From: a bacterium 336/3 | GTDB taxonomy: Bacteria; Bacteroidota; Bacteroidia; Cytophagales; Thermonemataceae | DNA length: 64,000 nt | Reading direction: 5' to 3' | NCBI GenBank assembly: GCA_001281695.1 | Contig: LJIE01000001.1 | Coordinates: 1,440,586-1,504,585, forward strand | Shown here: positions 30,030 to 49,244 of the stretch, piece after piece | How the letters are laid out: each line of letters begins with the position of its first letter | How positions within the stretch are numbered: position 1 is the stretch's first letter | Notes under the pieces: generated by a model | The model's input: only the letters and a program-made list of their open reading frames with translations | The model's database searches: none | What the model was told of the DNA's origin: nothing | Translations under genes and position numbers: made by a program

Positions 30030-33000
30030 ATGAAAAAATTCTTACTCAAACTACTAAACATTGAGAAAAGTGAATATACGCAAGTAATGACACTTTTGTT
30101 CTTAGGTTTTTTAATTGGAGTGTTTTTAGCAACATATAGCGTTGCAACTACTACGCTTTTTCTACAAAAATGGGACGAAAACGAATATTTGCCTATCGTA
30201 ACCATTGCCACAGGGCTTATAGGAATTGTAACTACCTATATATTTTCTTACCTTCAAAATAAAATTTCTTATGCGACGCTTTCCATTACTACGCTGATTA
30301 TAGTAGTAATATTGGTTGGTGGCTTAAGAGCTGGTTTTGCAGTAGTGGATGATCCCATTCTCAAAAATAGAATCATTTTTGGAGGTTTGGTAATGCTTGC
30401 ACCTTTTGAAGCTTTAGTTGGTTTGGTTTTCTGGGGAACTATTGCTCGAATGTTTACACTCAAACAACAGAGACGTATCGTGGGTGGTGTGGATATTGGA
30501 AAAGGTTTGGCTGCTTTGGCTACCTTTTTTGCCATTCCTATTTTCTCAGCTTTAGTGCCTGCTACCGAAGATTTAATAGATGTTACCTTTGTAGTGGGAG
30601 TACTTATCCTAATAATTTATTTTGCTTTGGTACTAATTTCGCCACTGATTAGTTTTGGTAAGCGTCAAATTATAGAAGGGCAAACTGGACGTTTTGGTAT
30701 CAGAAAAATGTTTAAAAATCAATACATCATTTTGATGGCATTTTTCTTGGTATTGGCAACCATCTCACACAAATTTGTAGATTACACTTTCTTGAACGCA
30801 ACTGGTCAGCAATATCCTGATGAAAGAGATTTACAAAACTTTATTGCTGTTTTTGAAGGAGTTATTTATTTCTTTATACTTACTATCCAGATTTTTGCTG
30901 TTGATAGAATTATAGAAATGTATGGGACAAGGGTAGCCTTGCTGATTAATCCTATTATCTTGGGTGGACTGACTACAGTGGCAATTTTAGTAGGTGTTTT
31001 TTCTGGTTTTAGGCCTGCTGTAGATGGAAGTGGAGGCTTTGTGTTGTTCTTTCTTTCAATTGCTTTAGGTAAATTGTTTTCTGCTGCCCTCAAAGAATCT
31101 ATGGATGATGCAGCCTTTAAACAATATTATTTCCCAATAGACTCTCGTGTACGTCTAGATGTTATCAGCCGTATGGATGGTATTGTAAAAGTAGGAGCTG
31201 GTTTAATAGCTGGTCTTTTGTTATTGGCAATTCAGTACACAGGATTTACCAATCTACTATTATTCTCCATCATATTAATACCCATCGTATTAGGTTGGGT
31301 ATTTACAACCAACAAAATGTATTTGGGTTACAAAGACACACTCAAACAAACCTTGGTAGAATCTAAAAATAAAATATCACAAAGTGCTTTTACAGAACAA
31401 TCTTTAGATAAAATGCTTCGCAAAGAAGCTTATTCTGTTCATGAGGATAGAACAATTTTTGCGTTAAAGTTACTTGAAAAATTAGAACCTACTATTTATG
31501 AAGAAGAACTCATCAGAATAGCAAGTAATACTGAAGGAATACCTCAAAAATATGCTTTGAAGCAAATAGATAAATTGATGATAACCTCTGAGGGTTTAAT
31601 ATCTCCAGAACAACAAAAAACAGTAAGTAATGATTTATACAAACTTGTAAAGTCTAAAAATGCTCAAGATAGACTACTTGCCGTTAAACAACTTCCGCAT
31701 TTAGTAAATGAGCAAAATGAGTTTTTGTTAATGGAGTTGCTTAGAGATATTGATATGAGAGTAAGATTGTATGCTGTTCATGCATGCAGAAAAATTAGAA
31801 AACCTGAAACATGGTCTATCCTTATAGATTTGCTCAATTCTCCAGTGTATGCCAATGCAGCAGCAGCAGCTCTCATTCAGGCTGGAGATACAGTTCTGCC
31901 AACATTAGAGTCAGCTTTTCATAAATCAGGGCAACACGAAGAAGTAATGAGGCGTATTGCAGAAATTTATGGTAGAATAGGGACTGAAAAATCTTTGGAA
32001 TTACTTTGGAATAAAATAAATTTCCCTGATACAGAAATAGTTGAACAAGTTCTGTATGCGTTCAGCTATAATAATATTCGTGTTCCTGCCGAAAGAGCTA
32101 CATTTATCAATCACATTATAGAAATTGAAATCGGTGATGCAGCTTGGGACATGGCAGCTTTATTAGAAATTAGTAAAGACCGTCATGCGTTTTATTTGAG
32201 AAAATCTTTAGAAGATGAAATAGATTATAATTTTGAAGGAATATTTACTTTACTTTCCTTGGTTTACGACCCACAGTCTGTACAGCTTGTAAAACAAAAT
32301 CTTGAAAGTGAATCCGCTGAAGCTCACGTATTTGCTATTGAACTACTGAATGTTTTCTTGGCAGATGAGTTAAAACCTAAATTGTTTCCACTATTAGAGG
32401 ACTTGTCTCCAGAAGAAAAAATTGAGAGGTTACAAGAGTTCTTCCCTCGTGAGCGTTTCAATTCTGTAGAAGTATTAAAACACTTGATAAGTAGAGACTA
32501 CTCTTATACAAATCGCTGGACAAGAGCTTGTGCTATTTATGCATTAGGTTTTGAAGAAAGGTTAGACTCTTTTGATGAATTGGTGGCTAACTTATTTCAC
32601 CCAGACCCACTCTTATATGAAACTTCTGCATGGGCTATTTACAAACATAGGCCTGAAATTTATGAAAAAATGCAAGAACGGTTACCTATTGAGAATGTGA
32701 GAAATATAGAAGTAGTATTAGAGAGAACTTTTAATACAAAAAAAGATTACCTAATGCCTTTAAGAATAGAAAAAACAATGTTTTTGAAGGATATAGACTT
32801 TATGCAAAATGTACCTTCTGATATTGTTTCAGAAATTGTAGAATTGATAGAAGAGAGGCATTATCCACAAACTACTACGATTATCCAAGAAGGACAAGAT
32901 AGCAATCAAGTACCCATTTGTATTGTAGCACAAGGTAGAGTAGATTCTATAAAAAATGGAATAGTGGCGGATGCTTATAATACTAGAGAAATATTTGGAC

Positions 33001-33182
33001 ATCTATATCTAGGAGATGAAGATTATGTAAACCAAACACTCATTGCTCAAGAAGGAACAACAGTTTATGAAATAGATAAAGATTTATTTTATGCAATGGT
33101 GCAGAAAAACCATGAATTCGCTCGAGCATTTATAGATGCTGTGGCTCAAGACTTAACACCAGTATCTATCAAAAACAAATAA
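30030..33182 (+). CDS. Transporter-HEAT-cyclic-nucleotide-domain fusion protein
   Basis: The 1,050-residue protein has three parts. Residues 1-430 form a membrane domain of about 12 TM helices with the look of the MFS/ATP-ADP carrier (NTT) group, including a GGVDIGKGLAALATFF segment and FPIDSRVRLDVISRMDGIVKVGAG. Residues about 440-860 are HEAT-like helical repeats (RLLAVKQLPHL, VRLYAVHACRKIRKPETW). Residues about 925-1045 form a cyclic-nucleotide-binding-like roll (TTTIIQEGQDSNQVPICIVAQGRVD). The classic PBC Arg motif is not clear. The transport role in an extracellular bacterium is unknown. It is 40 bases from the TIR-like gene and may share its transcript. Confidence 0.8.
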   Translation: MKKFLLKLLNIEKSEYTQVMTLLFLGFLIGVFLATYSVATTTLFLQKWDENEYLPIVTIATGLIGIVTTYIFSYLQNKISYATLSITTLIIVVILVGGLRAGFAVVDDPILKNRIIFGGLVMLAPFEALVGLVFWGTIARMFTLKQQRRIVGGVDIGKGLAALATFFAIPIFSALVPATEDLIDVTFVVGVLILIIYFALVLISPLISFGKRQIIEGQTGRFGIRKMFKNQYIILMAFFLVLATISHKFVDYTFLNATGQQYPDERDLQNFIAVFEGVIYFFILTIQIFAVDRIIEMYGTRVALLINPIILGGLTTVAILVGVFSGFRPAVDGSGGFVLFFLSIALGKLFSAALKESMDDAAFKQYYFPIDSRVRLDVISRMDGIVKVGAGLIAGLLLLAIQYTGFTNLLLFSIILIPIVLGWVFTTNKMYLGYKDTLKQTLVESKNKISQSAFTEQSLDKMLRKEAYSVHEDRTIFALKLLEKLEPTIYEEELIRIASNTEGIPQKYALKQIDKLMITSEGLISPEQQKTVSNDLYKLVKSKNAQDRLLAVKQLPHLVNEQNEFLLMELLRDIDMRVRLYAVHACRKIRKPETWSILIDLLNSPVYANAAAAALIQAGDTVLPTLESAFHKSGQHEEVMRRIAEIYGRIGTEKSLELLWNKINFPDTEIVEQVLYAFSYNNIRVPAERATFINHIIEIEIGDAAWDMAALLEISKDRHAFYLRKSLEDEIDYNFEGIFTLLSLVYDPQSVQLVKQNLESESAEAHVFAIELLNVFLADELKPKLFPLLEDLSPEEKIERLQEFFPRERFNSVEVLKHLISRDYSYTNRWTRACAIYALGFEERLDSFDELVANLFHPDPLLYETSAWAIYKHRPEIYEKMQERLPIENVRNIEVVLERTFNTKKDYLMPLRIEKTMFLKDIDFMQNVPSDIVSEIVELIEERHYPQTTTIIQEGQDSNQVPICIVAQGRVDSIKNGIVADAYNTREIFGHLYLGDEDYVNQTLIAQEGTTVYEIDKDLFYAMVQKNHEFARAFIDAVAQDLTPVSIKNK

Positions 33183-33222: not shown

Positions 33223-34671
33223 ATGAACAACCTTAATTTTGATATTTATCTTAACTACTCTAATAAGGATAATGAAGATGGATGGGTGAGTAGCCTTCAG
33301 AAAATGATTCAAGAGGCTTTAGGGCAACTTATGGGCGAAAAACCAGTAATATTACATTATCCTAACCAAGAAAAGCCAACAGCTTCTACTTTAGCACAAG
33401 TAGGAGTAATGATTTGTGTAGTTTCTCCTAATTTTATTAAGGATATAAACTGTATAGAAGATATACAAGCTTTTGTAGAGGCAAATGAAGGAATTGTTGC
33501 TAAAAGGATTATTAAAATAGTTAAATATCCTGTTACTTATGATGAACAACCTACAGCTGTTAAGGACTTACTAGCTTATAACTTATATACTATCAATATT
33601 CAAAATGGAGAGTTCAGCGAAATTAAAGAGTTTTTTGGAAGAGAAAATGAGAAAATATTTTGGACTCAATTATTAGACATTGCTCAAGAAACTTACAAAG
33701 CTCTTAATGTTTTAAGAAATAAAACCTTACAGCAAATAGCAGCTCATTTTAAAGGAAAAACGGTGTTTTTAGCTGAAACAACAGATGATTTGTTGATAGA
33801 AAGAAACCTGATTAAAAGAGAGTTAGAAAAATTTGGTTGTGTGGTAATTCCTGATAAAAACTTACCTAGTAATCGCATAGAAATGCAGAGCCTTCTTAAA
33901 AAAGATATAGAAAGAAGTGACTTAGCTATTCATCTGATAGGTAACTCTTATGGAGAAATTTTAGAGGAGAATGGAATATCATTATTAGAATTGCAAAATT
34001 CTTTGGCTACTGAACATGGCAATATTGTAGCAGCCACTAAGAATTCTATTTATGATGAAAAAAGAGGTTTTTCAAGAATTATTTGGGTTGCCCCTTATGC
34101 CAAATTTAATAGTGAACGTCAAAAAGTATTTGTTGATAATTTACGCCAAAATGCAGAAGCATTAGAAGGTGCTGAAATATTACAAGTACCCTTAGAAGAT
34201 TTAAAACAAGCTATTCGAAGAGTATTAAATGAACAAGAAGTTCAAAGTATAGAAGTTGTAGCTCATGCCACAAGCCAAGAAGGTGTTTATTTTATTTATG
34301 ATCCAATGGATGCGGATTCTGCTAAAAATGTAATAGAATATTTAAAGAATAGCAACTATAAGGTTCTTACTCCTGCTTTTGAAAATAATTTGTTAGAAGC
34401 AAGAAAAAAACATATTGATAATCTGGTAAATTGTAAAGCTGCCATTATTTTTTGTGGAAAAGTAAGTAAACAATGGATAGCTATGAAATTATTAGACTTA
34501 CTAAAAGCCCCAGGATTTGGTAGACAAAAACCATTAAAATATAAAGCTATTCTAACGGGTTCATTATTTCAACCTGATGACTTTGTTAGAAATAATCAAA
34601 TACAGGTAATACAGTTCCAAGATGGAGTAATTTACCCTGAATTAAATGAGTTTATACACACCATAGTTTAA
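33223..34671 (+). CDS. Protein with three tandem TIR/DUF4062-like domains
   Basis: The 482-residue soluble protein has three Rossmann-like units. Unit 1 (about 5-150) begins FDIYLNYSNKDNEDGW and continues GVMICVVSPNFIKDINCIED, matching the start and the SPN..C..E region of TIR domains. The usual catalytic Glu position falls at Glu79/Asp80, so NAD hydrolase activity is uncertain. Unit 2 (about 170-320) has VFLAETTDDLLIERNLIKREL and SDLAIHLIGNSYGE, as in DUF4062. Unit 3 (about 350-480) starts GVYFIYDPMDADSAKNVIEYL. The gene is 11 bases upstream of the STAND NTPase, implying a functional pair, possibly a receptor-effector or conflict system. Confidence 0.72.
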   Translation: MNNLNFDIYLNYSNKDNEDGWVSSLQKMIQEALGQLMGEKPVILHYPNQEKPTASTLAQVGVMICVVSPNFIKDINCIEDIQAFVEANEGIVAKRIIKIVKYPVTYDEQPTAVKDLLAYNLYTINIQNGEFSEIKEFFGRENEKIFWTQLLDIAQETYKALNVLRNKTLQQIAAHFKGKTVFLAETTDDLLIERNLIKRELEKFGCVVIPDKNLPSNRIEMQSLLKKDIERSDLAIHLIGNSYGEILEENGISLLELQNSLATEHGNIVAATKNSIYDEKRGFSRIIWVAPYAKFNSERQKVFVDNLRQNAEALEGAEILQVPLEDLKQAIRRVLNEQEVQSIEVVAHATSQEGVYFIYDPMDADSAKNVIEYLKNSNYKVLTPAFENNLLEARKKHIDNLVNCKAAIIFCGKVSKQWIAMKLLDLLKAPGFGRQKPLKYKAILTGSLFQPDDFVRNNQIQVIQFQDGVIYPELNEFIHTIV

Positions 34672-34682
34672 TAAAATATAAT

Positions 34683-36965
34683 ATGGAAACGAATGTAATC
34701 CAAAACACTATCCTTCAACAACAAGGTATCAATTTTAATCCTTTTCCTGGACTAAGACCATTTACCATAGAGGAAAGCCATTTGTTTTTCGGAAGGGAAG
34801 GGCAAAGTGATGAAGTTTTGATGAAGCTTTATCAAAATAGGTTTGTGGCCGTTGTAGGTCCTTCTGGAAGTGGTAAATCATCTTTTATTTATTGTGGTGT
34901 CATACCTATTTTGTACGGAGGATTTGTAGCTAATAAAACTTCCAATTGGAATGTTGTAGTTGCTCGACCTGGAGCATCTCCTATTGATAATCTTGCAGAG
35001 TCTATTTATAAAAAAATTACTCAAATTAATGCCTCTGAAGAAGAACAAAAAATTCGTAAAAAGGTAATAGCTACCTTATTGCGTAGTAGTTCTTTAGGTC
35101 TTATAGAGTCTATTATGCAAACCAAAGAGTTCTCGGATAAGAATACACTTATTCTTATAGATCAGTTTGAAGAGCTATTTAGATTTAGAAGACAAGATGA
35201 CCCAGAGGCTATTAATGAAGCTCTTAATTTTGTAAACTTACTCACAGAAGCTATACGCTATGAAGGTTTGCCTATTTATGTAGCTATTACTATGCGTTCG
35301 GACTTTATTGGTGAATGTGCGTTCTTTCCTGAACTTACAAGAGCTATCAATAACAGTTATTACATGATTCCACAAATGACTCGTGAGCAAAAACGAAATG
35401 CTATTACGGGTCCTGTAGCTGTGGGTGGAGGTGAAATTACGCCACGATTAGTACAAAGATTGTTGAATGATTTGGGAGATAACCCAGATCAATTACCTAT
35501 TCTTCAGCATTCTCTGATGCGTACTTGGGATTACTGGACTCGTCATAAAGAAACAGAAGAGCCTTTGGATGTGCATCATTATGAGGCAATTGGTACAATG
35601 AACGAAGCTCTTTCTTTACATGCTAATGAAGCTTATGACGAACTAACAGAGGGACAAAAGCGTGTTTGCGAAAAGTTATTTAAAAGTATTACAGAAAAAG
35701 GAGGCGATCAAAATCAAGGAATACGTCGCCCAACTAGACTTTCAGAAATTACAGCGATCGCAGGAGCAAGAGAAGAGGATGTAATAGCTATTATTGATAA
35801 ATTTAGAGAACCAGGACGTTCATTATTAACTCCTGCCGCAGGAGTTACACTTACAGGAGATTCTATCATAGATATTTCTCATGAAAGTTTGATGCGTATT
35901 TGGGTACGCTTGAAAAACTGGGTAGATGATGAAGCTGAAGCTGTTCAAATGTATCAACGTCTTTCAGAAGCATCTGCCATGTATCAAATTGGTAAAGCAG
36001 GTTTGTGGAGACCACCAGATTTGCAACTTGCTTTAAACTGGCGTGAAAAACACAAACCATCTCTTATTTGGGCAAAAAGACATAATCCTGCCTTTGAAAG
36101 AGCAATGGTATTCTTGGATTATAGTCAAAAAGAATACGAAACAGAACAGCGTATCAAAGAAATGCTTCAAAAGCGTACTTTGAAACGTACTCGTATTACA
36201 GCTATTATCATGGGTTTGTTTACATTGGTGGCAATTGCATTCTTGATTTATGCGTTGGCAAAAAGAGTAGAAGCAGACCAACAAAGAGCCAAAGCATTAG
36301 AACAAACAAAATTAGTTGAAAAACAAAAAGAAATAGCTGAAAAACAACGTGCTGAAGCAGAAAAAGCAAAATCTGAAGCAGAAAAAGCAAAAGAAGCTGC
36401 TGTACTTGCTCAGAAAGAAGCAGAGGAACAAAAAGAAGAAGCAGAAAAAGCAAAAGAAGAGGCTGAAAAACAAAAAGATATTGCTGAAAAGCAACGTGCA
36501 GAAGCTATTAAAGCAAAAGAAGAAGCTCGTTTGAGTGAAGCAAATGCAAAAGAAAGTGCTCGTGTAGCCGAAGCTGCCAGCCAAGAAGCTAGAAAGCAAG
36601 CAGATATTGCGAAAAAAGCAGAAAATAAAGCTAAAAATCAGCGTTTATTGTCTATTGCTCAATCAATGGCTTTAAAATCAAAACAACTTTCTGATGATCC
36701 TGAGCTACAAGCTTTAAATGCTCAACAAGCATATAAGTTCCATAGTGAAAATGGTGGTAGTAAATTCCATCCTGATATATACCAAGGACTTTATTATGCT
36801 ATCAGAACATTTGAAGGACAGGACTTTAATAAATTAAAAGGACATACTGATTACATCAGAGGTATTGTGCCTGCAAGTTCAGGAAAGTACATGTATTCTG
36901 CTGGTAGTGATGGACAGGTTTTAAGGTTTGACTTAGAAGATACCAAAAACAAGGTGAAGTCTTAA
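34683..36965 (+). CDS. nSTAND1 NTPase with TM helix, coiled coil and WD40 start (frame broken at 3' end)
   Basis: The 760-residue frame begins with FPGLRPFTIEESHLFFGRE and Walker A GPSGSGKSS (about residues 60-68), Walker B TLILIDQFEELF, and a winged-helix region, typical of the novel STAND NTPase 1 group. One TM helix lies near 505-525. A Glu/Lys/Ala-rich coiled coil spans about 530-660. The first WD40 blade follows (KGHTDYIRGIV, YSAGSDGQVLRFD). The frame stops shortly after; the remaining blades are in a different frame starting upstream of 36992. Such proteins act as regulated switches; the coiled coil could form an oligomer. A deletion in an A run explains the break. Confidence 0.85.
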   Translation: METNVIQNTILQQQGINFNPFPGLRPFTIEESHLFFGREGQSDEVLMKLYQNRFVAVVGPSGSGKSSFIYCGVIPILYGGFVANKTSNWNVVVARPGASPIDNLAESIYKKITQINASEEEQKIRKKVIATLLRSSSLGLIESIMQTKEFSDKNTLILIDQFEELFRFRRQDDPEAINEALNFVNLLTEAIRYEGLPIYVAITMRSDFIGECAFFPELTRAINNSYYMIPQMTREQKRNAITGPVAVGGGEITPRLVQRLLNDLGDNPDQLPILQHSLMRTWDYWTRHKETEEPLDVHHYEAIGTMNEALSLHANEAYDELTEGQKRVCEKLFKSITEKGGDQNQGIRRPTRLSEITAIAGAREEDVIAIIDKFREPGRSLLTPAAGVTLTGDSIIDISHESLMRIWVRLKNWVDDEAEAVQMYQRLSEASAMYQIGKAGLWRPPDLQLALNWREKHKPSLIWAKRHNPAFERAMVFLDYSQKEYETEQRIKEMLQKRTLKRTRITAIIMGLFTLVAIAFLIYALAKRVEADQQRAKALEQTKLVEKQKEIAEKQRAEAEKAKSEAEKAKEAAVLAQKEAEEQKEEAEKAKEEAEKQKDIAEKQRAEAIKAKEEARLSEANAKESARVAEAASQEARKQADIAKKAENKAKNQRLLSIAQSMALKSKQLSDDPELQALNAQQAYKFHSENGGSKFHPDIYQGLYYAIRTFEGQDFNKLKGHTDYIRGIVPASSGKYMYSAGSDGQVLRFDLEDTKNKVKS

Positions 36966-36991
36966 TCAAGAATCCTACTTACAACACAACA

Positions 36992-37915: not shown

Positions 37916-39049
37916 ATGAAAATAAATACAACTACTATAATCTCTTTTTTTGCTTGTTTTTTTCTTTTTACATCAGTCAATATTCTTTTTGCTCAAGAAA
38001 AACAAGAAGGTGAATCAGATTGCTCTGTAAAACTACAAGAGGGAGAAATAGCCTACGAAGATGGCTCACTAAGCAATTCTATTTTACTTTTAGAAGAATG
38101 TTTGAAATCAGGAGGTTTTAACACAGAAGAAAAAGTAAGAGCTTATCGTTTGCTTACAATTATTTACTTGTACAAAAATCAGGATGCAAAAGCTTCAGAA
38201 TACATGCACAGCATGCTGAAACTAAACCCTGAATACAGACTACGTCCTAATGACCCTTCTGAATTTGTAGATTTATACAAACAATACCGTATTCGTCCTT
38301 ACTTGATAATAGGAGGAGCAGGAGGAGGAAATATGCCTGTTTTGAACGTAAGTACACTTTATAGTACAGATAATGCAACCAATCAGGGTATTGTTTATAC
38401 AGGTTTATTAGGATTTCAAATTAATTTTAATACATCTAAACCCCTTACCAATAAACTTGAAATCATGTTTAATCCAACCTTTGCTGTAATGAGATACAGA
38501 TTTGAAGGAGACTACTTCGATTACTCAACACTTATATTTACAGAAACACAAACTCGCATAGAAGCTCCAATTTTACTTAAATACAACTTAAAAGATAAAT
38601 ATAATTTTAATATAGGAGGCTTAAAACCTTATTTTATGATAGGGGCTACACCTAATTATATATTAAGTTCTTCTGGAAATGCTCAAAGAGTGGATATTGT
38701 AAGCGAAGACCAAAGCCGTTCTGTAGAGGGCAAATCCATTCAAATGACAGATTTAAGAAACCAATTGACCTTTTCTGCTGTAGCAGGTGCAGGTGTAGAA
38801 TATAAATTAGGTTTAGGACATCTATTCGGGCAGCTTCAGTATCAACACGCATTCATGAATATGGTAAACTCAAATAACAGATATCTACTTCAAAATGAGA
38901 TAGCAAAATATGGGTATTTAGACAACGATTATAAAATGGGGGCTTTGACTTTCACATTAGGCTATAATTACCCTTTATATAACCCTAAAAAGAGAAAAAC
39001 AAAAAATAAAAAGATTACAGAAGAAATAAAAATTGAAAGTAATAATTAA
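37916..39049 (+). CDS. PorT-like outer-membrane beta-barrel protein with N-terminal helical domain
   Basis: The 377-residue protein has a signal peptide ending at LFAQ, a helical N-terminal part (about 30-125) that contains a TPR-like pattern (YEDGSLSNSILLLEECLKSGGF, then EYMHSMLKLNPEYRLRPNDP), and a C-terminal barrel of about 240 residues (GFQINFNTSKPL, GAGVEYKLGLGHLF). The end is lysine-rich. PorT-type barrels serve T9SS export or envelope assembly, so a role in secreting or anchoring the downstream giant protein is plausible but unproven. It follows the 16-base hairpin and overlaps no other gene. Confidence 0.72.
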   Translation: MKINTTTIISFFACFFLFTSVNILFAQEKQEGESDCSVKLQEGEIAYEDGSLSNSILLLEECLKSGGFNTEEKVRAYRLLTIIYLYKNQDAKASEYMHSMLKLNPEYRLRPNDPSEFVDLYKQYRIRPYLIIGGAGGGNMPVLNVSTLYSTDNATNQGIVYTGLLGFQINFNTSKPLTNKLEIMFNPTFAVMRYRFEGDYFDYSTLIFTETQTRIEAPILLKYNLKDKYNFNIGGLKPYFMIGATPNYILSSSGNAQRVDIVSEDQSRSVEGKSIQMTDLRNQLTFSAVAGAGVEYKLGLGHLFGQLQYQHAFMNMVNSNNRYLLQNEIAKYGYLDNDYKMGALTFTLGYNYPLYNPKKRKTKNKKITEEIKIESNN

Positions 39050-39101
39050 AAGTGTTTACATTTTTATCTATATCAGTATTAATAATATCCAACGAAAAAT
39101 C

Positions 39102-40406
39102 ATGAAAAACTATCATATATTCATATTTATAATATTCATTTCTATCGTTTCATGTAAAGTGACTCCTAAGATAGCTTTAGATGAGTCAGGTACATTTTAT
39201 AAAATGCTAGGAGGTGCTCTTGATGAAAAAGCTCATGATGTAGCAGAAACTGCAGATGGAGGTTTTATGATAGCAGGCTCTACAAAAATATTAGTTATTG
39301 ATGAAGCATCAGGTAGTGAAATTGAAAAAGAAGTAACCTATGTAACAAAGACTGACAAATTTGGTAATGTAATCTGGAAAAAGCAATACCCAGGGCAAGC
39401 TGCAAAAGCTGTTTTGCAAGCTCCTGATGGTAATTGGTTTATTGGTTTAGATTCATTGGTGGTTGTTAGTTCTACGGTTTCCCATACAGATTATGCTTTG
39501 ATGAAAATAGATAACAATGGAAATCCTTTATGGGTGCGAAAATACAATGGGGTAGGTACAAGGTCAGAGGTAATTAAAAAAATGCAAATGGTAGAAAGTG
39601 AGATTTATATAGTGGGAAATGCTGTTGCAAAACTTATAGACGAAACAGAGTTAAATGCTGTATTTATTATTGCTACTAATTTAGATGGAGTAGAAAGAAC
39701 AAGAAATGAATATGGTGCTTTAACCATACCAACAGCCAATACCCCAGCCGATAAAAGACCCACTTCTGCCAATAGTGCAATTATAGACCCTGTTGCAAGT
39801 CTCAAATATTTGGTATCCATAGGTTCTACTGTTAAACAAGGTGATGATAGAATTAACAGTCAATTGATAGTATTTAGTAGAGAAGGTATTGTTCCTATTG
39901 ATGCTGGAGGAGAATTTGGTGGAGGTGGTGATGATGTAGGTGAAAGCATTCAACCCACAAGAGATAATGGTTATGTAATTTGTGGAACAACTAATAGTTC
40001 TGGCAATGGAGGAAAAGATATGTTTGCTATCAAATTAACTTTTCCGAGAGATTTACAAGATGGTAAACCACAAGCAATCAATCCTACCAGAATTGCTTGG
40101 TCTAAAACATTTGGTGGAGGTGGTGATGATGAAGGAAAAAGTATTTATCCTACTTCTGATGGAGGCTATTTATTATTGGGAAATGTTGCTACCACCACTG
40201 CTGGTACTGATATTCATCTTATTAAATTAGATGGATTAGGAAATCAGGTTTGGGAAAAGTTTTTTGGAGGTACACGAAACGACCAAGCTAAATTTGTAAA
40301 AGAGCTTTCTAATGGGGATATTTTGATATTAGGAACAATTAGCTTTGAAAATAATGATATGATAACACTCATTAGAGCGAATAAGAATGGCGAATTAGTT
40401 AAATAA
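39102..40406 (+). CDS. Lipoprotein with propeller-like repeats
   Basis: The start at 39102 (MKNYHIFIFII) gives a lipoprotein signal ending at Cys (IVSC). A longer frame from 39033 overlaps the barrel gene and is rejected. The 434-residue mature protein shows repeated units with GGGGDDxGxSIxPTxDxGY, for example near residues 290-300 and 350-360, each followed by a short strand pattern such as VICGTTNSSGNGGKDMFAIKL. These resemble the long-chain propeller repeats found in many Bacteroidota surface proteins. It probably sits on the outer membrane. It is 36 bases upstream of the giant protein gene. Confidence 0.7.
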   Translation: MKNYHIFIFIIFISIVSCKVTPKIALDESGTFYKMLGGALDEKAHDVAETADGGFMIAGSTKILVIDEASGSEIEKEVTYVTKTDKFGNVIWKKQYPGQAAKAVLQAPDGNWFIGLDSLVVVSSTVSHTDYALMKIDNNGNPLWVRKYNGVGTRSEVIKKMQMVESEIYIVGNAVAKLIDETELNAVFIIATNLDGVERTRNEYGALTIPTANTPADKRPTSANSAIIDPVASLKYLVSIGSTVKQGDDRINSQLIVFSREGIVPIDAGGEFGGGGDDVGESIQPTRDNGYVICGTTNSSGNGGKDMFAIKLTFPRDLQDGKPQAINPTRIAWSKTFGGGGDDEGKSIYPTSDGGYLLLGNVATTTAGTDIHLIKLDGLGNQVWEKFFGGTRNDQAKFVKELSNGDILILGTISFENNDMITLIRANKNGELVK

Positions 40407-40442: not shown

Positions 40443-43400
40443 ATGAACTATATTACTATGCAAAAACTGTGGAAATACAGTTTAATACTATTCTTATTTC
40501 CACTATTAGCCTCAAAGGCTGCTGTACCTGTCTTACAGTCAACAAATCCTACAAACTTGGCTAGTGGAGTAGCAATCAATACTACAGTTTCTTTCACTTT
40601 TGATATCAATATCAGCAAAGGAACAGGAAATATTACACTTACACCCTCTCCTTCTGGGGCAGCTATTGTTGTTGATGTAAATTCAGTATCTGTTACAATT
40701 ACAGGAGGTAATAAAATATTGAATATTACTGGTTTAACAATGTTGCAAAACCGTACTTATGAAGTTACAATGCCTTCAGGAGTGGTTCTAGAACAAGGAG
40801 GAGCCAATGATCCTTTTGGAGGAATTGCATCAAGTATATATAGTTTTACCACAGTTGCTCCTGCTCCTACTCTTTCCAGTCGTACACCAACACATAATGC
40901 TACAAATATAGCTACCACAAGCAACTTAACACTAACATTTGATATGCCTGTAGCAAAAGGTACAGGTAATATTGAAGTACAAGCTATTACTCCTGCTGGT
41001 ACTACCCAAAATATAGATGTAACAGGAACTAATGTAACTGTTGCAAGTAATGTAGTAACAATAGCTAATGCTGGTTTTACATTGAATAGTGGTACTTTAT
41101 ATGAGGTTCGTATTCCTAATACGGCTTTTGTAGCCTCTGGAGGTGCTACAAGTCCAGCTTTTGCAGGAATAACAGCTTCCAATTGGCGATTTATTACACA
41201 AGGAATAGCACCAGTATTAGCTTCTACATCACCTGCTCATAATGCAACCAATGTTTTAACTACAGCTACTTTAACATTGAATTTTGATATTAATGTAAAA
41301 AAAGGCTCTTCAGGAAATATTACCATTACACCTATTACACCTGCTGGAGCAGCAACAGTAAAAGCTATCACCTCTGGAGATATAACAATAGCTGGAAATG
41401 TAGTTACTGTAGCAAGTTTGGGGCTGTCAGCCAATACACTCTATGAAGTAACTATTGATGCAGGAGCTATTCTAGCAGATAATCCATCTTCAGAACCTTA
41501 TGGAGGCTTAACAACTGGGCTATGGCGATTTGCAACAACAGGAAATATTCAGGTAACAGCCCCTAGTTTGACAGATATATGTAGAGATAACAAAAGCTTT
41601 AAGTCATTGGGGGATATTGTAATAGATGAAAGGTCTGTTGACAATTTTATTGCTGGTGCAGGACAGTTATTAATACTTAATATGCCTACTAACTTTGAGT
41701 TAAATCCAGGAGTGGGTAGTGTAAGTGCTACAGGTGGTTCAGATATAACTATCAATTCGTTTTTTATTTCTAATACTAAAATATTTATCATATATAGTAT
41801 TACAGGTACATCCAATATTAATGAAATAACAATCTCAGGATTACAAGTAAAAGCAAATACCACAGCTACTACAGGAAATATTACAAGAGATGTGGCAAGT
41901 ACTGCACAAATGGATGGCTTGGCAGGTGTTTCTTCTTTTGCCAGTCTTATAAGTGTAGCTTTACCAAGTGTTCCTGCCTTAACTGCTGGAGCTGATACAG
42001 ATTATTGTGTAGGAGATAATCTTGCTACAGCCATATTAACAATCAATAATCCTTTAAGTTTCATACACAAATGGTACAGTGATGCATCCTTAACAACATT
42101 AGTTTTTACAGGAAATAGTGCGTCTATTGGAACCAATTTAGGGGTAAGTAGTATAGTGGCAGGCTCTCATAATTTCTATATAGTAAGAGAAAGCCCTACA
42201 ACATCATGTCAGAGTACACCTCTTTTGGTAACCATAAATATTTCTGCAAGTCCTACAATAGGAGTATCCAGCAATGATGCAGATAATGAAATATGTAGAT
42301 TTGAGACAATAGAAGTGACATTCTTTGGTACAGCATCCTCTTATACAGTAACTATAGATGGCTTGCCTGTTACTACACAAGGTACAGTTACTACTATTCC
42401 TGGTGGGGTGAAGTTTACGTCCAATAATACACTTACAGCAAATACTTATAATGTAGAAGCTACAGGTACTTTAAATGGTTGTACAGCAACAACTTCACTA
42501 AGCTTTACTGTAAAACCTTTACCATCTGTAACTTATATATCTCCAAGAAGTACTTTTGGAGTTGCTGAATCACCATATCTACTGACAGGAGGTTCTGGAA
42601 TACCAGCAGGAGGTTCTGGTGTATATTCTGGAACTGGTGTAAATACTGCTGCAAGTACCTTTAACCCCACAACAGCAGGCATAGGTACCCATATTATTAC
42701 TTATACTTATACAGCACCTAATGGTTGTACCAACAGCACAACCCAAACATTTTTTGTTACTTCTGGTACTCTACCTATTATAGGTATAGATCCTGTTGAG
42801 TGTACATCTGGAGGTGGTTTTATTGGTCCTTTAGTTCCAAGTACAAGTTTATATACAGGTGGACCTGTCAATCCTAATCCTGGTTTAGACTTAGGCTCGC
42901 CTTGTTCATTTCCTTGTGTAGGTGGAAATAGAGATTATTATATTACTACAAGAAATCGGAGTCTATCTACTATTGTTGAATTTTCAGGAGGTAATTTTAG
43001 AATCAATTTGGCACAAGTACATGCCTTTAGTGGAGGTTTTTATCCATACTCATTTGAATTAGAAATGGGCGGATGTGCTTTATCTGGAGGGTGTCATACA
43101 CAATTGGTTACAATTAATAGACAACCAGAAATAGATCAAGTACAATACAATTTAAATGGAGGTCCAACGCAAACATGGTTGCCTTTTGATGTAGGTAATC
43201 CTGCTACAGTTCCTGCTTTTTGTAAAGATGGAGGGAATTTGCAAGTTAGTCCAAGTATATTAGCTGGCACAGGCTCTGGCTCAGGCTCTTTTTCCTATCA
43301 ATTACGTGTGGTTGCAGGTACTTATGCTCCAGCATCTAATGTGATTAACTTATCTACTCTTACTGCGGGCAATGCTTATGAAGTACAAATTACCTATAAC

Positions 43401-46400
43401 GATGCTAATACTTGTAATTATGTAGTAACACGTAGATTCCGTATCTATCAAGATCCAACACTTGTAACTACATATAATACAGGTACAAGATTATGTGCCA
43501 ATGCTACAGTATTTGATATGAATACTTCTGCTACCTCAGACCCTACGGGGGCTTATAGTCAAACAAGAGGACAGTTTTCTATTTGGAATTCAACAGCTAC
43601 TAATTTGCTATATATAAATCCTTTGGGTGTAAACTTATTTTCTGTGAATTTCCTAAGTGCTGGTACGTATGTGTTGCGTTATACTTATGAAAGTGCTGTT
43701 GGTTGTAATGTTTCTTCTGATCAAACATTTACAGTGAACACCTTACCAACACCAACGTTTACATTTAATGCTGGTGCTGGACAATGTGCAAATGTGGGAA
43801 CAATTGCTGTTACAACAAATCCTGCAATGAGTGCAACAGGTAGAATGTATATGAGAAAAGTAGGTAATCCATCTTTTGTTTCACAACCTTTTAATTCAAG
43901 TTCAATTCTTTTACCAATATTTACATTGAGAGTAGGTTCTTACGATGTGTATTATGAATATACTGATGGAAATGGTTGTACAGCAAATTCACCCATTCAA
44001 ACCTTTACAGTTTATCCTTTACCTGCCTTAGATTTTACACTTACAGGCGGAATAGGAGCTGGTAATAATGAGTATTGTAGAGATGCAGGAGACATAACAC
44101 TTATTCCCAGCCGTAGTAATGGTTCTTTGACAAGTGCTAATGGTTATTTCAGATTTATAAAGACAACAGCACCATCTAATGGTACCATTATTGATTTACC
44201 TAATGGAGACAACACTGTAAATATTGCTACTGATTTATTTGCTGTGGCAGGTGTGGGTACATACGATGTAGCTTATTATTATACAGATGAGAATGGTTGT
44301 ATTAATAATTCTTTGGGTAAAACATTGATTGTAAATCCTATTCCAACACCTGATTTTACAGGTTTACTAGCTGGATATTGCGAAGATTTAATTTCGTTTA
44401 CATTAAATCCACTTGTCAATGGAAGTGCTCCTGCAACACCTACCAATGGACGTTTTGGTATTAGACAAACATTACCTGTAGCTGGTACAGAATTTTTCTT
44501 AGCCAATGGAGTAAATGATATTCCTGTGAGAGGAACAGGTCCTCTTCCTGTACTTACAGCAGGTACTTATGAAATAAGATATTTATATACAAATGCTTCT
44601 GGTTGTACAGCAAGTAGTGTTGTAAGAACTTTTATTGTAAGACCTTTACCTAGCTTAAGCTTTACAATGCCAAGTTCAGCATGCCAAGATGCTGGAAATA
44701 TTACTTTAACACCTACTCCTACAGGTGGCAGTTTTACCTTTACTAAAGGAGCATTCTCTCTTGCATTGGCAAATGGAGATGTGAATGTTAATGTAAATAC
44801 AGAACTATTTGCCAATGCAGGTTTAGGAAATTACTCTGTGACTTACACTTATACAGATGCTAATGGTTGTTCTAATACTTCAGTGGCTCAAACATTGACA
44901 ATAAATGCACTACCTACTCCTGATTTTGTTGGTCTAGGAACAAGTTATTGTGTGAGTAATGCAGATGTTGTTTTAACTCCTTTACCAGCAATAGGTGGTA
45001 CATTTAGAATCAGAAGAACGCTTCCTACTGTAACTAGTTTTGAAACATTTAGTGGAGTATTCAAACCTTCAGCACCTCTTCCAAGTAGTCCTTTGCCTGG
45101 TTTACCAACCTTAGTTGATAGAAACAGTAAAGCAGGAACATACGAAATTACTTATACTTACACAGATGGTAATGGTTGTATTAATACGTCTGTTGCAAAA
45201 ACAGTAATCGTCAATACATTGCCAGATGTAGATTTTGTATTTCAAGGAGGGGTAAGCACTTATTGTATAGATGCTACCAATGTAAGTATGACTCCTAGTA
45301 GAGCAAATGGGGTGCTTACACCTGCTAATGGTTTTTTCACAATTGGCAGAACATTACCTACTTTTAATTTGGTATTAGCAAATGGTGTAAATAGTTTTAA
45401 TCCAGCTACTCAATTAACCCCTGGTGTAGGTACCTATAATGTAACCTATACTTATACAGATGCTAATGGTTGTACAAACATTTCACCAGTTGGAACACTT
45501 ACAATAGTTCCGTTGCCTACACCAAGTGTTACGGGTTTTAGCCCTAGTTATTGTGTAGATGCTAGTGCTTTTGCACTGACACCTCTACCAACAACAGGTG
45601 GTACATTTAGAATCAGAAGAGTAAGTCCTTCAATAACAGCATTTGAAATCTTTAGTGGAACATTTAATCCTTCCGCTCCATTACCAAGTGATCCTCTTCC
45701 TGGTTTGCCTACCTTAGCTGATAGAAATAGTAAAGCTGGGATTTATGAAGTAACATATACTTACTCTGATGGTAATGGCTGTACAAATACTTCTAGTGCT
45801 ATACAAATAATAGTAACACCTTTACCAGATGTAAACTTCTCGTTTAATGCTGGCACAAATGCATATTGTGAAGATGTAACTTCTGTTACCCTGACACCTA
45901 ATAGAGCAAATGGAAGTATAGTTCCTGCAAATGGGTTCTTTCGTATAACAAGAACTGCACCTGCTTTTACACTAAATTTGGTAGCGGGAGATAATAATTT
46001 CAATCCTTCAACAGAACTGTTGCCAGCACCTAATAGAGCAGGTACATACCAAATAACTTATACTTATACAGATGAAAATGGTTGTATAAATACATCACCA
46101 TCTCAAAACTTAATTATCAATGCTTTACCTAATTTAAGTATTACAGGGTTTGCTTCTAATTATTGTATAAGTGATGCAGATGTAACAATTACAGGGTTAA
46201 ATAATTTAGTATCTGTTACAGGAGGGCAGTTCAGAATAAGAAGAACATTACCTGCTGTTTCTGCTACTTCTTTTGAAAATTTATCAGGAGCATTATTTAG
46301 ACCTTCAGCACCTCTTCCAAGCAGTCCATTGGGTAGTAATCCTACTTTAACAGATAGAAATAGCAAAGCAGGAACATACGAAATTACCTACACTTATACA

Positions 46401-49244
46401 GATGGTAATGGTTGTACAAATACTTCTGCTCCAATTACAATTGTAGTAAATCCTTTGCCAGTAGTTACATTCTTATTCCCTAATTCAGATAAAGATAATT
46501 ATTGTCAAGACCAAGGAGTAATATCATTGATACCTCAATTGGATGGAGGAACAGGTGTTATTACACCAATAAGAGGATTCTTTACAATTACTAAAACAAC
46601 AACACCTACTTTAAATCTTGTTTTAGCAAATGGAGATAATACAGTGGATATTACAACAGAATTATTTGCTGTAGGGGGTATAGGAAGTTATGATATTATT
46701 TACACTTATATTGATCCTATCACAAATTGCCAAAATATATCACCTAGCCGTACATTAATTATAAATCCTTTACCTGTATTAACTTTTGAATATCCAAAGC
46801 CAGATGGTATAAATGAAGATAATACATACTGCGAAAATGCAACTGTATTAACTTTAGACCCAATTTGGGTAAATTCAGGAGGAAGACCCTTTATACCTTC
46901 TAGTGGGTTCTTTAGATTTACAATAGGAACATTTACATACAATGCACCAGCAGGAATCAATGTTATTAATCCTAGTATTAATCTTGTACAAGGAGGTGGA
47001 AGTTATGGAATTTATCAAGTAACATATCATTATACAGATGCAAATGGTTGTACAAGTGTCTCACCAGCTCGTGAACTAAGAATATATCCTTTACCACGAA
47101 TAGGTTCTAGTTTGCCTCCAGTAGCTTTTAGTTATACCAATGCTTGTTTGGGAGATGTAACACAATTTTCTGCAAATATAACCTTACCTACAATTGATGC
47201 TAATGATGGTATTACTGAAATTAAGTGGGAATATGGAGATGGTACAGTTGAAACGTATGTTGGGCCAACACTATCACAAGGCTATAATGTAAGCCATACA
47301 TATAGTATAGCTATTACATATCAAGCTAAATTAACAGTATCTACTATACAAGGATGTAGTAGTACATTCATTAGAAATGTTAGAATTGGAGCTATTCCAG
47401 TTGCAGGATTTAACCCATCTCGTTTCTGTCAAGGAGATATGGTTCAATTTATTAGTACATCAACAATAGCCCCTACGGATAGTATTGCAAGAGTAATTTG
47501 GCGTTTTGGAGATGGTGTTTCACAAGTTATAGACATCTATTCAACAAATCCAGCGTTGTCTCCAAATACGGAATATCAATATTCTGCTCCTGGAGAGTAT
47601 GAGGCAGAATTGACAACTATTTCTACTTTAGGATGTACTAATACAATTAAAAAGCAAATATTTATATTTCCTAATGTTACAGTAACACCAACAACTCCAT
47701 ATAACGAAAATTTTGAGGCATCAAGTGGAGGATGGTTACCTAATGGCGTAACAGGAGGTGTATCTAAGCTGTATAGTTGGACCCACAGACCTACAAATGG
47801 AGTAAAAATGCCTTTGAGTAACTCCTCAAGAGCATGGGTAGCCAGAATGGCAGATAGTACAAAATACATGAATAATGAGCAGTCGTATGTAGAGAGTCCT
47901 TGTTTTAATATATCTACTTTACAAAGACCAATGCTACAAATGAGGATATTTTATGATACTGACCAAGGTGGTGATGGAGCTGTAGTACAAGTAAGTAAAG
48001 ATGATGGTATTACATGGAATATTTTAGGTTCTGTTGGTGAAGGAGTAGAATGGTATAATACAAGTGGTATAGCAGGTTTACCTGGTGGACAAGGACTGAA
48101 AGGTTGGTCTGGTCGAACTATGAATAATTGGGTATATGCTCGTTATCCATTGGATATATACAGAGGAGAATCTAAATTACGTTTCAGAGTTGCATTTGGT
48201 TCTAATGCTGATAACGTTACGCCTGCACCATTTGATGGGTTTGCTTTTGATGAAGTATTTATTGGAGAAAGAAATAGAAAAGTATTGATTGAGCATTTTA
48301 CAAACTCATCTGATGCAACATCAAATTCTGAAAATGAAGCTGTTAATAATTTTTCAGGTGTTGTAAATGGAGAGGCAGTACACATTCAATACCATACTTC
48401 ATTCCCTGGAACAGACCCTATGAATGCAGATAATACAGCAGACCCAAGTGCTAGAGCTTTGTATTATGGTGTTACACAAGTACCTCGTACAAGTTTGGAT
48501 GGAACTCTAAGAAACAATCCATCACAATTTTCTGTTTGGGGGCAAGCAGCTTATAATCAAAGAGTTTTATTGCAGTCACCATTTGATATTAAGGTAACCT
48601 ATCCAACAAACCCAGCTGAATTATTGAATGTTTCTGCAGAAATCAATGCTTTGAGTAGAGTGGATAGCTCATTGATTGTACAAATAGTAGTTGTAGAAAA
48701 AGAAATAGATGGTAGTGCATTTACAGGTGTAAATTTAGGAAGTCTTAAATTTAAAAATGTTGTGAAAAGAATGCTTCCTGACGCAGCAGGAACAAGGGTT
48801 AATCAGGTATGGATACCACCAGCAAGAGTTGTTGTTAATCAATCTTGGAATCCTGTGAATGTTTATGATAAAAATAAGTTAGGAATTGTTGTTTATTTAC
48901 AGAATGAAATTAATAAACAAGTTTATCAATCATTTTACAGTGATGTGAGTACAAGACCATCAGGTATAACGTCTTTGCCTAATAATTTGGTTCAGAACTT
49001 TACACTCTATCCAAACCCTACTAAAGATAAAATTATCGTAGGTTTTGAGGGCGTTACAGCTACTGAAAACTATCAAATATATATCTATGACCAATTGGGT
49101 AGAATGTGCAAAGAAGCAACATTACAATCTGGAAATCAAGGGGTAGTAGTAAATGTAGAAAACCTTGCAGATGGAATGTATGTGTTGAAATTACAAAATT
49201 CACAAGGTGATATGATAACTCGTAAGTTTTCAATAGTAAAATAA
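40443..49244 (+). CDS. Giant T9SS-exported repeat protein (2,933 residues)
   Basis: The protein starts MNYITMQKLWKYSLIL with a signal peptide ending near SKA; a start at 40458 (MQKLW) is equally possible. Three Big_5 Ig-like domains (about 28-355) have LxLxFDxxVxKGTGNI motifs. Further Ig-like units follow, then 11 tandem modules of about 100 residues (about 1,100-2,218), each with an early YC and a late YTYTDxNGC, suggesting one disulfide per module. Two PKD-like units (about 2,223-2,412) and a jelly-roll-like region follow, then an Omp28-like domain (about 2,610-2,730) and a T9SS type A sorting domain (about 2,848-2,933; YPNPTKD, LADGMYVLKL). It is likely a surface adhesin or matrix protein. 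Confidence 0.9.
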   Translation: MNYITMQKLWKYSLILFLFPLLASKAAVPVLQSTNPTNLASGVAINTTVSFTFDINISKGTGNITLTPSPSGAAIVVDVNSVSVTITGGNKILNITGLTMLQNRTYEVTMPSGVVLEQGGANDPFGGIASSIYSFTTVAPAPTLSSRTPTHNATNIATTSNLTLTFDMPVAKGTGNIEVQAITPAGTTQNIDVTGTNVTVASNVVTIANAGFTLNSGTLYEVRIPNTAFVASGGATSPAFAGITASNWRFITQGIAPVLASTSPAHNATNVLTTATLTLNFDINVKKGSSGNITITPITPAGAATVKAITSGDITIAGNVVTVASLGLSANTLYEVTIDAGAILADNPSSEPYGGLTTGLWRFATTGNIQVTAPSLTDICRDNKSFKSLGDIVIDERSVDNFIAGAGQLLILNMPTNFELNPGVGSVSATGGSDITINSFFISNTKIFIIYSITGTSNINEITISGLQVKANTTATTGNITRDVASTAQMDGLAGVSSFASLISVALPSVPALTAGADTDYCVGDNLATAILTINNPLSFIHKWYSDASLTTLVFTGNSASIGTNLGVSSIVAGSHNFYIVRESPTTSCQSTPLLVTINISASPTIGVSSNDADNEICRFETIEVTFFGTASSYTVTIDGLPVTTQGTVTTIPGGVKFTSNNTLTANTYNVEATGTLNGCTATTSLSFTVKPLPSVTYISPRSTFGVAESPYLLTGGSGIPAGGSGVYSGTGVNTAASTFNPTTAGIGTHIITYTYTAPNGCTNSTTQTFFVTSGTLPIIGIDPVECTSGGGFIGPLVPSTSLYTGGPVNPNPGLDLGSPCSFPCVGGNRDYYITTRNRSLSTIVEFSGGNFRINLAQVHAFSGGFYPYSFELEMGGCALSGGCHTQLVTINRQPEIDQVQYNLNGGPTQTWLPFDVGNPATVPAFCKDGGNLQVSPSILAGTGSGSGSFSYQLRVVAGTYAPASNVINLSTLTAGNAYEVQITYNDANTCNYVVTRRFRIYQDPTLVTTYNTGTRLCANATVFDMNTSATSDPTGAYSQTRGQFSIWNSTATNLLYINPLGVNLFSVNFLSAGTYVLRYTYESAVGCNVSSDQTFTVNTLPTPTFTFNAGAGQCANVGTIAVTTNPAMSATGRMYMRKVGNPSFVSQPFNSSSILLPIFTLRVGSYDVYYEYTDGNGCTANSPIQTFTVYPLPALDFTLTGGIGAGNNEYCRDAGDITLIPSRSNGSLTSANGYFRFIKTTAPSNGTIIDLPNGDNTVNIATDLFAVAGVGTYDVAYYYTDENGCINNSLGKTLIVNPIPTPDFTGLLAGYCEDLISFTLNPLVNGSAPATPTNGRFGIRQTLPVAGTEFFLANGVNDIPVRGTGPLPVLTAGTYEIRYLYTNASGCTASSVVRTFIVRPLPSLSFTMPSSACQDAGNITLTPTPTGGSFTFTKGAFSLALANGDVNVNVNTELFANAGLGNYSVTYTYTDANGCSNTSVAQTLTINALPTPDFVGLGTSYCVSNADVVLTPLPAIGGTFRIRRTLPTVTSFETFSGVFKPSAPLPSSPLPGLPTLVDRNSKAGTYEITYTYTDGNGCINTSVAKTVIVNTLPDVDFVFQGGVSTYCIDATNVSMTPSRANGVLTPANGFFTIGRTLPTFNLVLANGVNSFNPATQLTPGVGTYNVTYTYTDANGCTNISPVGTLTIVPLPTPSVTGFSPSYCVDASAFALTPLPTTGGTFRIRRVSPSITAFEIFSGTFNPSAPLPSDPLPGLPTLADRNSKAGIYEVTYTYSDGNGCTNTSSAIQIIVTPLPDVNFSFNAGTNAYCEDVTSVTLTPNRANGSIVPANGFFRITRTAPAFTLNLVAGDNNFNPSTELLPAPNRAGTYQITYTYTDENGCINTSPSQNLIINALPNLSITGFASNYCISDADVTITGLNNLVSVTGGQFRIRRTLPAVSATSFENLSGALFRPSAPLPSSPLGSNPTLTDRNSKAGTYEITYTYTDGNGCTNTSAPITIVVNPLPVVTFLFPNSDKDNYCQDQGVISLIPQLDGGTGVITPIRGFFTITKTTTPTLNLVLANGDNTVDITTELFAVGGIGSYDIIYTYIDPITNCQNISPSRTLIINPLPVLTFEYPKPDGINEDNTYCENATVLTLDPIWVNSGGRPFIPSSGFFRFTIGTFTYNAPAGINVINPSINLVQGGGSYGIYQVTYHYTDANGCTSVSPARELRIYPLPRIGSSLPPVAFSYTNACLGDVTQFSANITLPTIDANDGITEIKWEYGDGTVETYVGPTLSQGYNVSHTYSIAITYQAKLTVSTIQGCSSTFIRNVRIGAIPVAGFNPSRFCQGDMVQFISTSTIAPTDSIARVIWRFGDGVSQVIDIYSTNPALSPNTEYQYSAPGEYEAELTTISTLGCTNTIKKQIFIFPNVTVTPTTPYNENFEASSGGWLPNGVTGGVSKLYSWTHRPTNGVKMPLSNSSRAWVARMADSTKYMNNEQSYVESPCFNISTLQRPMLQMRIFYDTDQGGDGAVVQVSKDDGITWNILGSVGEGVEWYNTSGIAGLPGGQGLKGWSGRTMNNWVYARYPLDIYRGESKLRFRVAFGSNADNVTPAPFDGFAFDEVFIGERNRKVLIEHFTNSSDATSNSENEAVNNFSGVVNGEAVHIQYHTSFPGTDPMNADNTADPSARALYYGVTQVPRTSLDGTLRNNPSQFSVWGQAAYNQRVLLQSPFDIKVTYPTNPAELLNVSAEINALSRVDSSLIVQIVVVEKEIDGSAFTGVNLGSLKFKNVVKRMLPDAAGTRVNQVWIPPARVVVNQSWNPVNVYDKNKLGIVVYLQNEINKQVYQSFYSDVSTRPSGITSLPNNLVQNFTLYPNPTKDKIIVGFEGVTATENYQIYIYDQLGRMCKEATLQSGNQGVVVNVENLADGMYVLKLQNSQGDMITRKFSIVK

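Follow-up and report, generated by a model that had tools for sequence, protein, structure and literature searches.

A fusion gene at the head of a conserved operon

The gene considered here lies in a 64,000-nucleotide stretch of the genome of bacterium 336/3, a member of the Cytophagales (assembly GCA_001281695.1, contig LJIE01000001.1, positions 1,440,586 to 1,504,585 of the forward strand), to which we refer as the window. It encodes a membrane protein resembling the ATP/ADP carriers of the NTT family, fused to HEAT repeats and to a domain that resembles cyclic-nucleotide-binding domains (CNB, or cNBD). This fusion gene is the conserved first gene of a Cytophagales operon that continues with genes for a TIR protein, a STAND protein, an outer membrane (OM) protein (OMPB), a lipoprotein (LIPO), and a giant surface protein (GIANT). 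The window copy is composed as follows (aa, amino acids; TM, transmembrane).

30030..33182, + strand: NTT-HEAT-cNBD fusion of 1,050 aa (profile searches, hydropathy, AlphaFold2, fold comparison), with 12 TM helices at residues ~13-452, a HEAT solenoid at 459-902, and a CNB-like beta-roll at 930-1042
33223..34671, + strand: triple TIR/DRHyd-fold protein of 482 aa (Pfam, AlphaFold2, VIA-align), with TIR at residues 3-163, DUF4062 with a DNPH1/MilB-like fold at 178-338, and a deoxyribosyltransferase/TIR-like domain at 350-482
34683..36965, + strand: nSTAND1 NTPase with a single TM helix, an Ala-rich coiled coil, and the start of a WD40 propeller, 760 aa
36992..37837, + strand: remainder of the STAND WD40 propeller in another frame, 281 aa
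37916..39049, + strand: OMPB, with a signal peptide, an N-terminal helical part, and an OM beta-barrel, 377 aa (family Pfam matches and conserved position)
39033..40406, + strand: LIPO, a lipoprotein with beta-propeller-like repeats
40443..49244, + strand: GIANT, a surface protein of 2,933 aa with a signal peptide, Big_5, PKD, and a C-terminal type IX sorting domain (Por_Secre_tail)

The fusion open reading frame (ORF) begins with ATG, and from the fusion onward the intergenic gaps of 40, 11, 26 (a frame break), 78, -17, and 36 bases are operon-like. The original prediction, made from the letters of the window, gave the first of these gaps as 40 bases, which is exact, and remarked on the TIR/STAND adjacency in passing; that adjacency proved to be the main clue to a conserved operon.

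We first collected 20 neighborhoods through the fusion, drawn from 16 relatives and the genome of bacterium 336/3 itself. STAND, OMPB, and LIPO genes lay beside the fusion in 14 of them, and 13 of those had the TIR gene as well. Locus L025 lacked it, L028 gave only a short TIR-gene match, and L022, which runs out at a contig end, carried the TIR gene together with a giant-like gene. To avoid selection via the fusion, a set of named loci, the best 80 of 570, was fetched with the STAND protein alone. These 80 loci contained the fusion in 70, the TIR gene in 68, OMPB in 78, and LIPO in 72. Where at least 5.5 kb of upstream sequence was available, the fusion was found in 61 of 62 loci (L112 being the sole one without a recognized fusion) and the TIR gene in 59 of 62; where at least 2.7 kb was available downstream, OMPB was found in 69 of 69 and LIPO in 66 of 69. 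A same-strand ORF of at least 1,200 aa directly followed LIPO in 40 of the 42 loci with at least 5 kb there. Chance as an explanation of the TIR/STAND adjacency is ruled out by these recurring neighborhoods.

Some loci carry an additional gene of the SpoIIE type, which occurs in 7 of the 80 named loci and lies between the fusion and the TIR gene in 4 of those. A gene of 650 to 680 aa stands between these two genes in L028, L030, L032, L101, L103, L113, and L121. By Pfam, the product is a HAMP-SpoIIE phosphatase in L030, and the SpoIIE-type gene adjoins TIR/STAND in L098 and L112.

Co-occurrence of the fusion and the STAND gene across genomes

A census of the order covered 194 genomes, with cut-offs of E <= 1e-150 for STAND and E <= 1e-20 for the fusion and with counts taken among the matches listed; the 1e-150 cut-off and the alignments A1 and A2 were built from the members of the first 20 neighborhoods, which are mostly operon members. 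On these terms, STAND was present in 61 genomes and the fusion in 83. Both were present in 60, STAND alone in 1 (a genome 79% complete), the fusion alone in 23, and neither in 110.

Physical linkage was counted at the 75 stronger STAND places among the matches listed. The fusion lay within 10 kb upstream on the same strand in 39, within 10 kb in another order in 8, at 10 to 30 kb in 5, and further away on the contig in 4; the remaining 19 had no fusion on the contig. STAND and fusion are ~450 kb apart in G040 (3 contigs) and on different contigs, both present, in G025 (~20 contigs), which shows that both genes can be retained without being linked.

A search of 395 genomes from the phylum recovered the STAND form in 13, in 6 of which the match covered just the NTPase half; the fusion was found in 32 at E <= 1e-30. 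The module therefore belongs mainly to this order, and outliers occur in other classes (L135 to L138).

Architecture and fold of the fusion protein

Pfam, AlphaFold2, and fold searches agree on the predicted arrangement of a 12-TM half resembling ATP/ADP carriers, HEAT repeats, and a CNB-like roll within 1,050 residues. The TLC/NTT, HEAT_2, and cNMP_binding models all scored above their family cut-offs. The first of these (PF03219; E = 8.8e-10, 38.6 bits) did so in a six-frame genome search, unlike in hmmscan of the fusion protein alone, where it was not listed, and the other two did so in the fusion protein (1e-13 and 8.8e-8, respectively). Hydropathy delimits 12 hydrophobic segments spanning residues 20 to 427, and the positive-inside pattern is strong: averaged over 60 relatives, the loops on one side contain 25.2 K/R and those on the other 3.0. 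Given these segments and loop charges, both termini, and with them the soluble half, are predicted to lie in the cytoplasm. In the AlphaFold2 model (60 sequences; mean pLDDT, 85.8; pTM, 0.75), the TM helices end at residue 452 and are followed by an alpha-solenoid (459 to 902) and a beta-roll (930 to 1042), so the predicted structure contains both the HEAT solenoid and the CNB roll and is not that of a plain MFS protein.

NTT structures ranked first for the fusion in Foldseek and VIA-align (AtNTT1, 9j3m, Z 38.7, rmsd 3.0, 428 residues aligned), and the best match outside that family was SLC19A3 (VIA-align Z 28.9). A profile of 28 relatives matched solved ATP/ADP carriers in the PDB (6.9e-24, 4.1e-20) as well as one other chain (0.011), and when the TM half was compared profile to profile by hhalign with six canonical NTTs, the result was 98.5% and 3.1e-15 across 418 columns. 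Single TM halves submitted to hmmscan matched TLC in 3 of 28 and MFS_1 in 7 of 28. Taken with the modeled fold, the profile matches assign the TM half, by predicted descent, to the NTT (ATP/ADP carrier) superfamily. A longer form of the protein was observed in L040 (7997-12703, - strand), where the NTT fusion has 1,568 aa and exceeds the others by several hundred residues.

Transport residues and the CNB pocket

Four charged residues, K155, E245, E385, and K527, are important in AtNTT1 (PMC4256464, PMC3306366; statements taken from cited papers refer here and below to the parts of them that were covered). Each of six canonical NTTs from the same order keeps all four. Among 60 aligned fusions, the E385 position is acidic in 50 (Asp251 in the window protein), the E245 zone is acidic in 1, which is the window protein itself (Glu127), the K527 zone is basic in 8, and the K155 core columns (57, 58, and 61) contain no basic residue. 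Other charged residues, K/R148, R149, and K364 among them, are nearly invariant in the fusion and are placed on the cytoplasmic side by the predicted topology. Because three of the four essential residues are mostly gone, ATP/ADP exchange by the known NTT chemistry, which the original prediction's comparison with ATP/ADP-type carriers had implied, is not supported by the sequences of this family.

Cyclic AMP- and cyclic GMP-binding CNB domains are marked by a phosphate-binding cassette with a Glu and an Arg motif. The cassette R[STA]A motif was found in 0 of 60 fusions and the Glu in 17 of 60, with both together in 0 of 60. Gating by a cyclic nucleotide monophosphate (cNMP) through the canonical pocket is thus not supported by the aligned sequences, as the Arg motif is absent from all 60 relatives, and sensing of cAMP or cGMP by that route was rejected for its degenerate cassette. 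The proposal that the soluble half gates transport by nucleotide signals accordingly loses its cyclic-nucleotide part; gating by another nucleotide signal, or transport of another solute, would be compatible with the fusion sequence.

Partner proteins

The window STAND protein matches the nSTAND1 profile at 2.5e-96. Among members found through the NTT gene (alignment A2), the P-loop is present in 14 of 15 and the motif DQFEE[LI]F in 15 of 15; in the named loci, the P-loop and the TM helix are each present in 76 of 77, and the 77 of 77 recorded for the motif is partly by construction, since DQFEE[LI]FR was in the search pattern. Relatives have a single ORF of ~1,040 aa, and in the window the reading frame is broken in the WD40 region (34683-37837; 760 + 281 aa), which may be either an assembly error or a real loss.

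In the TIR protein, VIA-align matched domain 1 to the SPARTA TIR (Z 14.0) and MyD88 (Z 13.4), domain 2 to the nucleotide N-glycosidases DNPH1 (Z 13.6) and MilB (Z 12.5), and domain 3 to a deoxyribosyltransferase (Z 12.0). Pfam TIR_2 matched 50 of 62 members, and a PDB search with the family profile gave weak matches only. In NAD-cleaving TIR domains, the catalytic Glu lies in the helix after the W/C-x-x-E motif. Column 80 of domain 1 is Glu in 9 of 62 members (Asp in the window) and column 82 in 44 of 62 (Gln in the window). In domain 3, all 62 members share Trp418, Lys422, and Lys428, of which Lys422 lies four residues past Trp418.

OMP_b-brl_2 was matched by 23 of 30 OMPB family members, the window's own copy not being one of them. 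The listed LIPO ORF begins at TTG, and an ATG 69 bases in, followed by a lipobox (SIVSC), is the likelier start. A crude pattern found a lipobox-like motif in 48 of 67 LIPO proteins, and propeller models match a minority of members (DUF5122 in 7 of 29). A YPNP sorting motif stands near the end of 18 of 20 complete giants.

Sister loci beside contractile injection systems

The genome of bacterium 336/3 carries a second NTT-TIR-STAND-OMPB-LIPO copy at C1:1785328 (L041; region L041/L142, G000:C1:1785328-1810000), which is followed by a sheath gene (PF04984) and then by genes read as baseplate, tube, spike, and gp25-like genes. A sheath search of this genome returned one place, C1:1800074, beside the second copy, and no sheath gene adjoining the window copy. 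The names baseplate, spike, gp25-like, and second tube come from our own reading of the sequences and from blastp among the loci; L132 is the only locus with Pfam-confirmed tube and sheath, and three baseplate-like proteins that were scanned had no Pfam match.

When the sheath search was extended to 80 genomes (four of 84 were left out; matches were counted down to E 0.01), 38 matches were obtained in 34 genomes. Fifteen of these, one in each of 15 genomes, are no more than 25 kb from a fusion or STAND place among those listed, against an expectation of 0.79 that derives from rounded genome sizes. All of the 15 but that in G191 exceeded the family cut-off, some of them only together with in-frame neighbors. 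Examples linked to extracellular contractile injection systems (eCIS) are L154, L155 with L139, L159, and L161. A FastTree phylogeny of the fusions, which has several long branches and includes no cyanobacterial or chlamydial fusions, placed eleven eCIS-linked fusions in one clade (support 98) with L099 (eCIS), L141, and L040. The window falls in a group (41 rows, support 94) whose loci were not classed as eCIS; the tree label "adhesin" was given to every locus not otherwise classed, including L099 (eCIS) and L141 (contig edge).

A third setting is seen in L133 to L136, where STAND and the fusion occur with a TonB-dependent receptor and a Y_Y_Y histidine kinase, as called by Pfam for L133 and by blastp likeness for L134 to L136. 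L133 and L134 have a GNAT gene in addition.

A candidate envelope-spanning signaling module

The genes of the operon very probably form one functional unit. The module reading is based on conserved gene order, co-occurrence, domain make-up, topology pattern, and secretion signals. We tentatively favor a mechanism in which the fusion would be the inner-membrane effector or conduit of an envelope-spanning STAND/TIR signaling module, because the core (STAND, fusion, and OM protein) is constant while the outward cargo changes.

The outer part of such a module would consist of the giant type IX-secreted protein (in sister loci, a contractile injection system), the OM barrel, and the surface or periplasmic lipoprotein. 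Its state could be conveyed to the STAND protein by its WD40 propeller, which would lie in the periplasm beyond one TM helix and the Ala-rich coiled coil. ATP-driven assembly of STAND in the cytoplasm might then recruit the triple TIR-fold protein, and the two together may act on the NTT-fold protein through its cytoplasmic HEAT-cNBD arm. That protein would either move an altered solute, probably nucleotide-like or phosphorylated, or be a non-transporting receptor; the fusion would thus be a membrane effector or signal conduit and not an ATP/ADP feeding carrier. A more specific version is possible, though we give it less weight: a surface alarm or launch control, in which an interchangeable outer part signals to the STAND/WD40 receptor and on to TIR, with the NTT fusion as a gated conduit for a nucleotide signal.

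Several observations weigh against this reading. At the cut-off used, 23 of the 83 fusion-bearing genomes of the order have no STAND gene, and 5 of the 20 neighborhoods (L023, L031, L035, L039, and L040) have no operon beside the fusion, which suggests that the fusion can also function by itself or in different contexts; STAND is encoded on another contig in the genomes of L023, L031, L039, and L040. No TIR gene was found in 3 of 62 loci or in L025. Genomes of one order are related, so the co-occurrence counts are non-independent events, and Fisher's test on them takes no account of kinship, and many of the 19 STAND contigs without a fusion are short, so that true unlinking is shown in few. 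Giant-like and eCIS genes lie within 25 kb of each other in G011 and G140, and these two settings are therefore not fully exclusive. As to the mechanism, which we infer from genes and predicted structures, hydropathy is the one source of the periplasmic placement of WD40, the catalytic positions of the TIR fold vary, which leaves the nucleotide signal putative, and the STAND gene of the window is frame-broken.

True nucleotide transport and assembly control of the cargo are the main rivals to the signaling module. In the first, which we consider somewhat less probable than the alarm version, the fusion would be a real transporter of nucleotides (or of NAD or a phosphate compound) that serves the TIR/nucleosidase-fold and STAND proteins, with an arm that senses a non-cyclic nucleotide. 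Its NTT homology and fold are clear, the E385-type acidic residue persists in 50 of 60 fusions, and domains 2 and 3 of the TIR protein resemble nucleotide N-glycosidases and deoxyribosyltransferases; however, the K155, E245, and K527 positions are mostly lost, and the cNMP pocket motif is absent.

In the second, a rather unlikely reading, STAND, TIR, and NTT would together be an apparatus that assembles large envelope structures (type IX giant proteins, contractile systems) or checks their quality, controlling the export, anchoring, or release of the cargo, with no alarm involved. That a giant ORF comes next in 40 of 42 testable loci and that eCIS genes neighbor the module in the sister clade are what such an apparatus would lead one to expect. 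On the other hand, STAND and TIR parts elsewhere are typical of conflict and stress signaling (PMC7159879, PMC8195603), and 19 of the 34 sheath-bearing genomes have no module within 25 kb of the sheath, with contig breaks perhaps behind some of these.

A death system triggered by contact or phage, with the NTT-fold protein as a membrane-damaging effector, appears improbable. The combination of STAND, TIR, and a membrane protein may recall the effector logic of STAND defense as known from that family, but gene order is stable over many genera, a PADLOC scan of six proteins gave a single weak match (a STAND relative, mad3, 5.1e-4), and the TIR protein had no tblastn match at 1e-5 in 72,556 plasmid records. 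The same scan and plasmid-record negative led us to reject a mobile or catalogued defense system as the default explanation. A plain ATP/ADP or nucleotide scavenging carrier in an incidental operon is very improbable, with fold and homology as its only support set against the missing essential residues and co-occurrence of 60/61 and 61/62; ATP/ADP scavenging as the main role of the fusion was rejected for its residue losses and its co-occurrence with STAND.

Relation to known systems

The NTT-HEAT-cNBD architecture was described, with function unknown, by Major et al. in 2017, who found a monophyletic NTT-HEAT group (PMC5381601). According to the parts of that paper covered, such fusions are predominantly bacterial and also occur in oomycetes, and the cNBD was suggested to bind cAMP and so control ATP uptake. 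The window protein combines these three domains, identically ordered, in a single chain, and the original prediction that related, uncharacterized fusions occur in Bacteroidota agrees with the literature searched. The covered parts of PMC5381601 stress Cyanobacteria, Chlamydiae, and oomycetes, and the operon with TIR, STAND, and surface proteins was not found in them; in contrast to the cAMP proposal made there, the cassette motif is degenerate in window-type fusions. The plastid and chlamydial carriers (AtNTT1, 9j3m; Chlamydia pneumoniae NTT1, 9j3n) share the 12-TM fold and are the best structure and profile match, whereas in the window fusion family three of the four essential charged residues are mostly not conserved and HEAT and CNB parts are added.

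Conflict systems built on nSTAND1 (named in PMC8195603) and TIR likewise have, in the sections covered, STAND NTPases, TIR folds, repeat or propeller parts, and Bacteroidota carriers (PMC7159879, PMC8195603). Unlike them, the operon adds a TM helix, an OM barrel, a lipoprotein, a giant type IX cargo, and an NTT-fold partner. Bacteroidota eCIS loci of the kind treated in PMC8213781 and PMC8894135 (again as covered) are adjoined by the sister form of the module, in the genome of bacterium 336/3 as well; unlike those loci, the window copy has no nearby sheath gene and has a giant surface protein in the cargo position. The operon was not found in the literature searched, which included the covered parts of the STAND/TIR and eCIS papers and lay mostly outside subscription journals. 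The fusion alone is a further member of a known family, and the operon as a whole is apparently undescribed.

When NTT fusions were reported from free-living bacteria in 2017, no function was given, and none has been assigned since in the literature searched; the strict genetic partnership of the fusion with STAND/TIR and surface cargo makes the question of function testable. For Gram-negative bacteria, the module points to a route by which NLR-like proteins may be reached from the cell surface, and it is a possible control unit for contractile injection systems in Bacteroidota.

Additional observations

Locus L130 (G002:C31) agrees exactly over its first 14,000 bases with L083 (Raineya orbicola, NZ_NKXO01000031.1), so G002, a genome of the window's genus, is Raineya orbicola (Cytophagales, Raineyaceae), and the window probably comes from a different Raineya species. 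Near the eCIS/NTT/STAND region of G092 (L145, 10026-19613), eight tandem genes encode lipoprotein-like products of 372 to 386 aa whose starts are closely alike. Upstream of the fusion, the window carries a divergent membrane-protein gene (28457-29947, - strand) whose only match, to HupE_UreJ, is sub-threshold. A counterpart with 37% identity occupies the same place in G002 (L022, 5585-7078).

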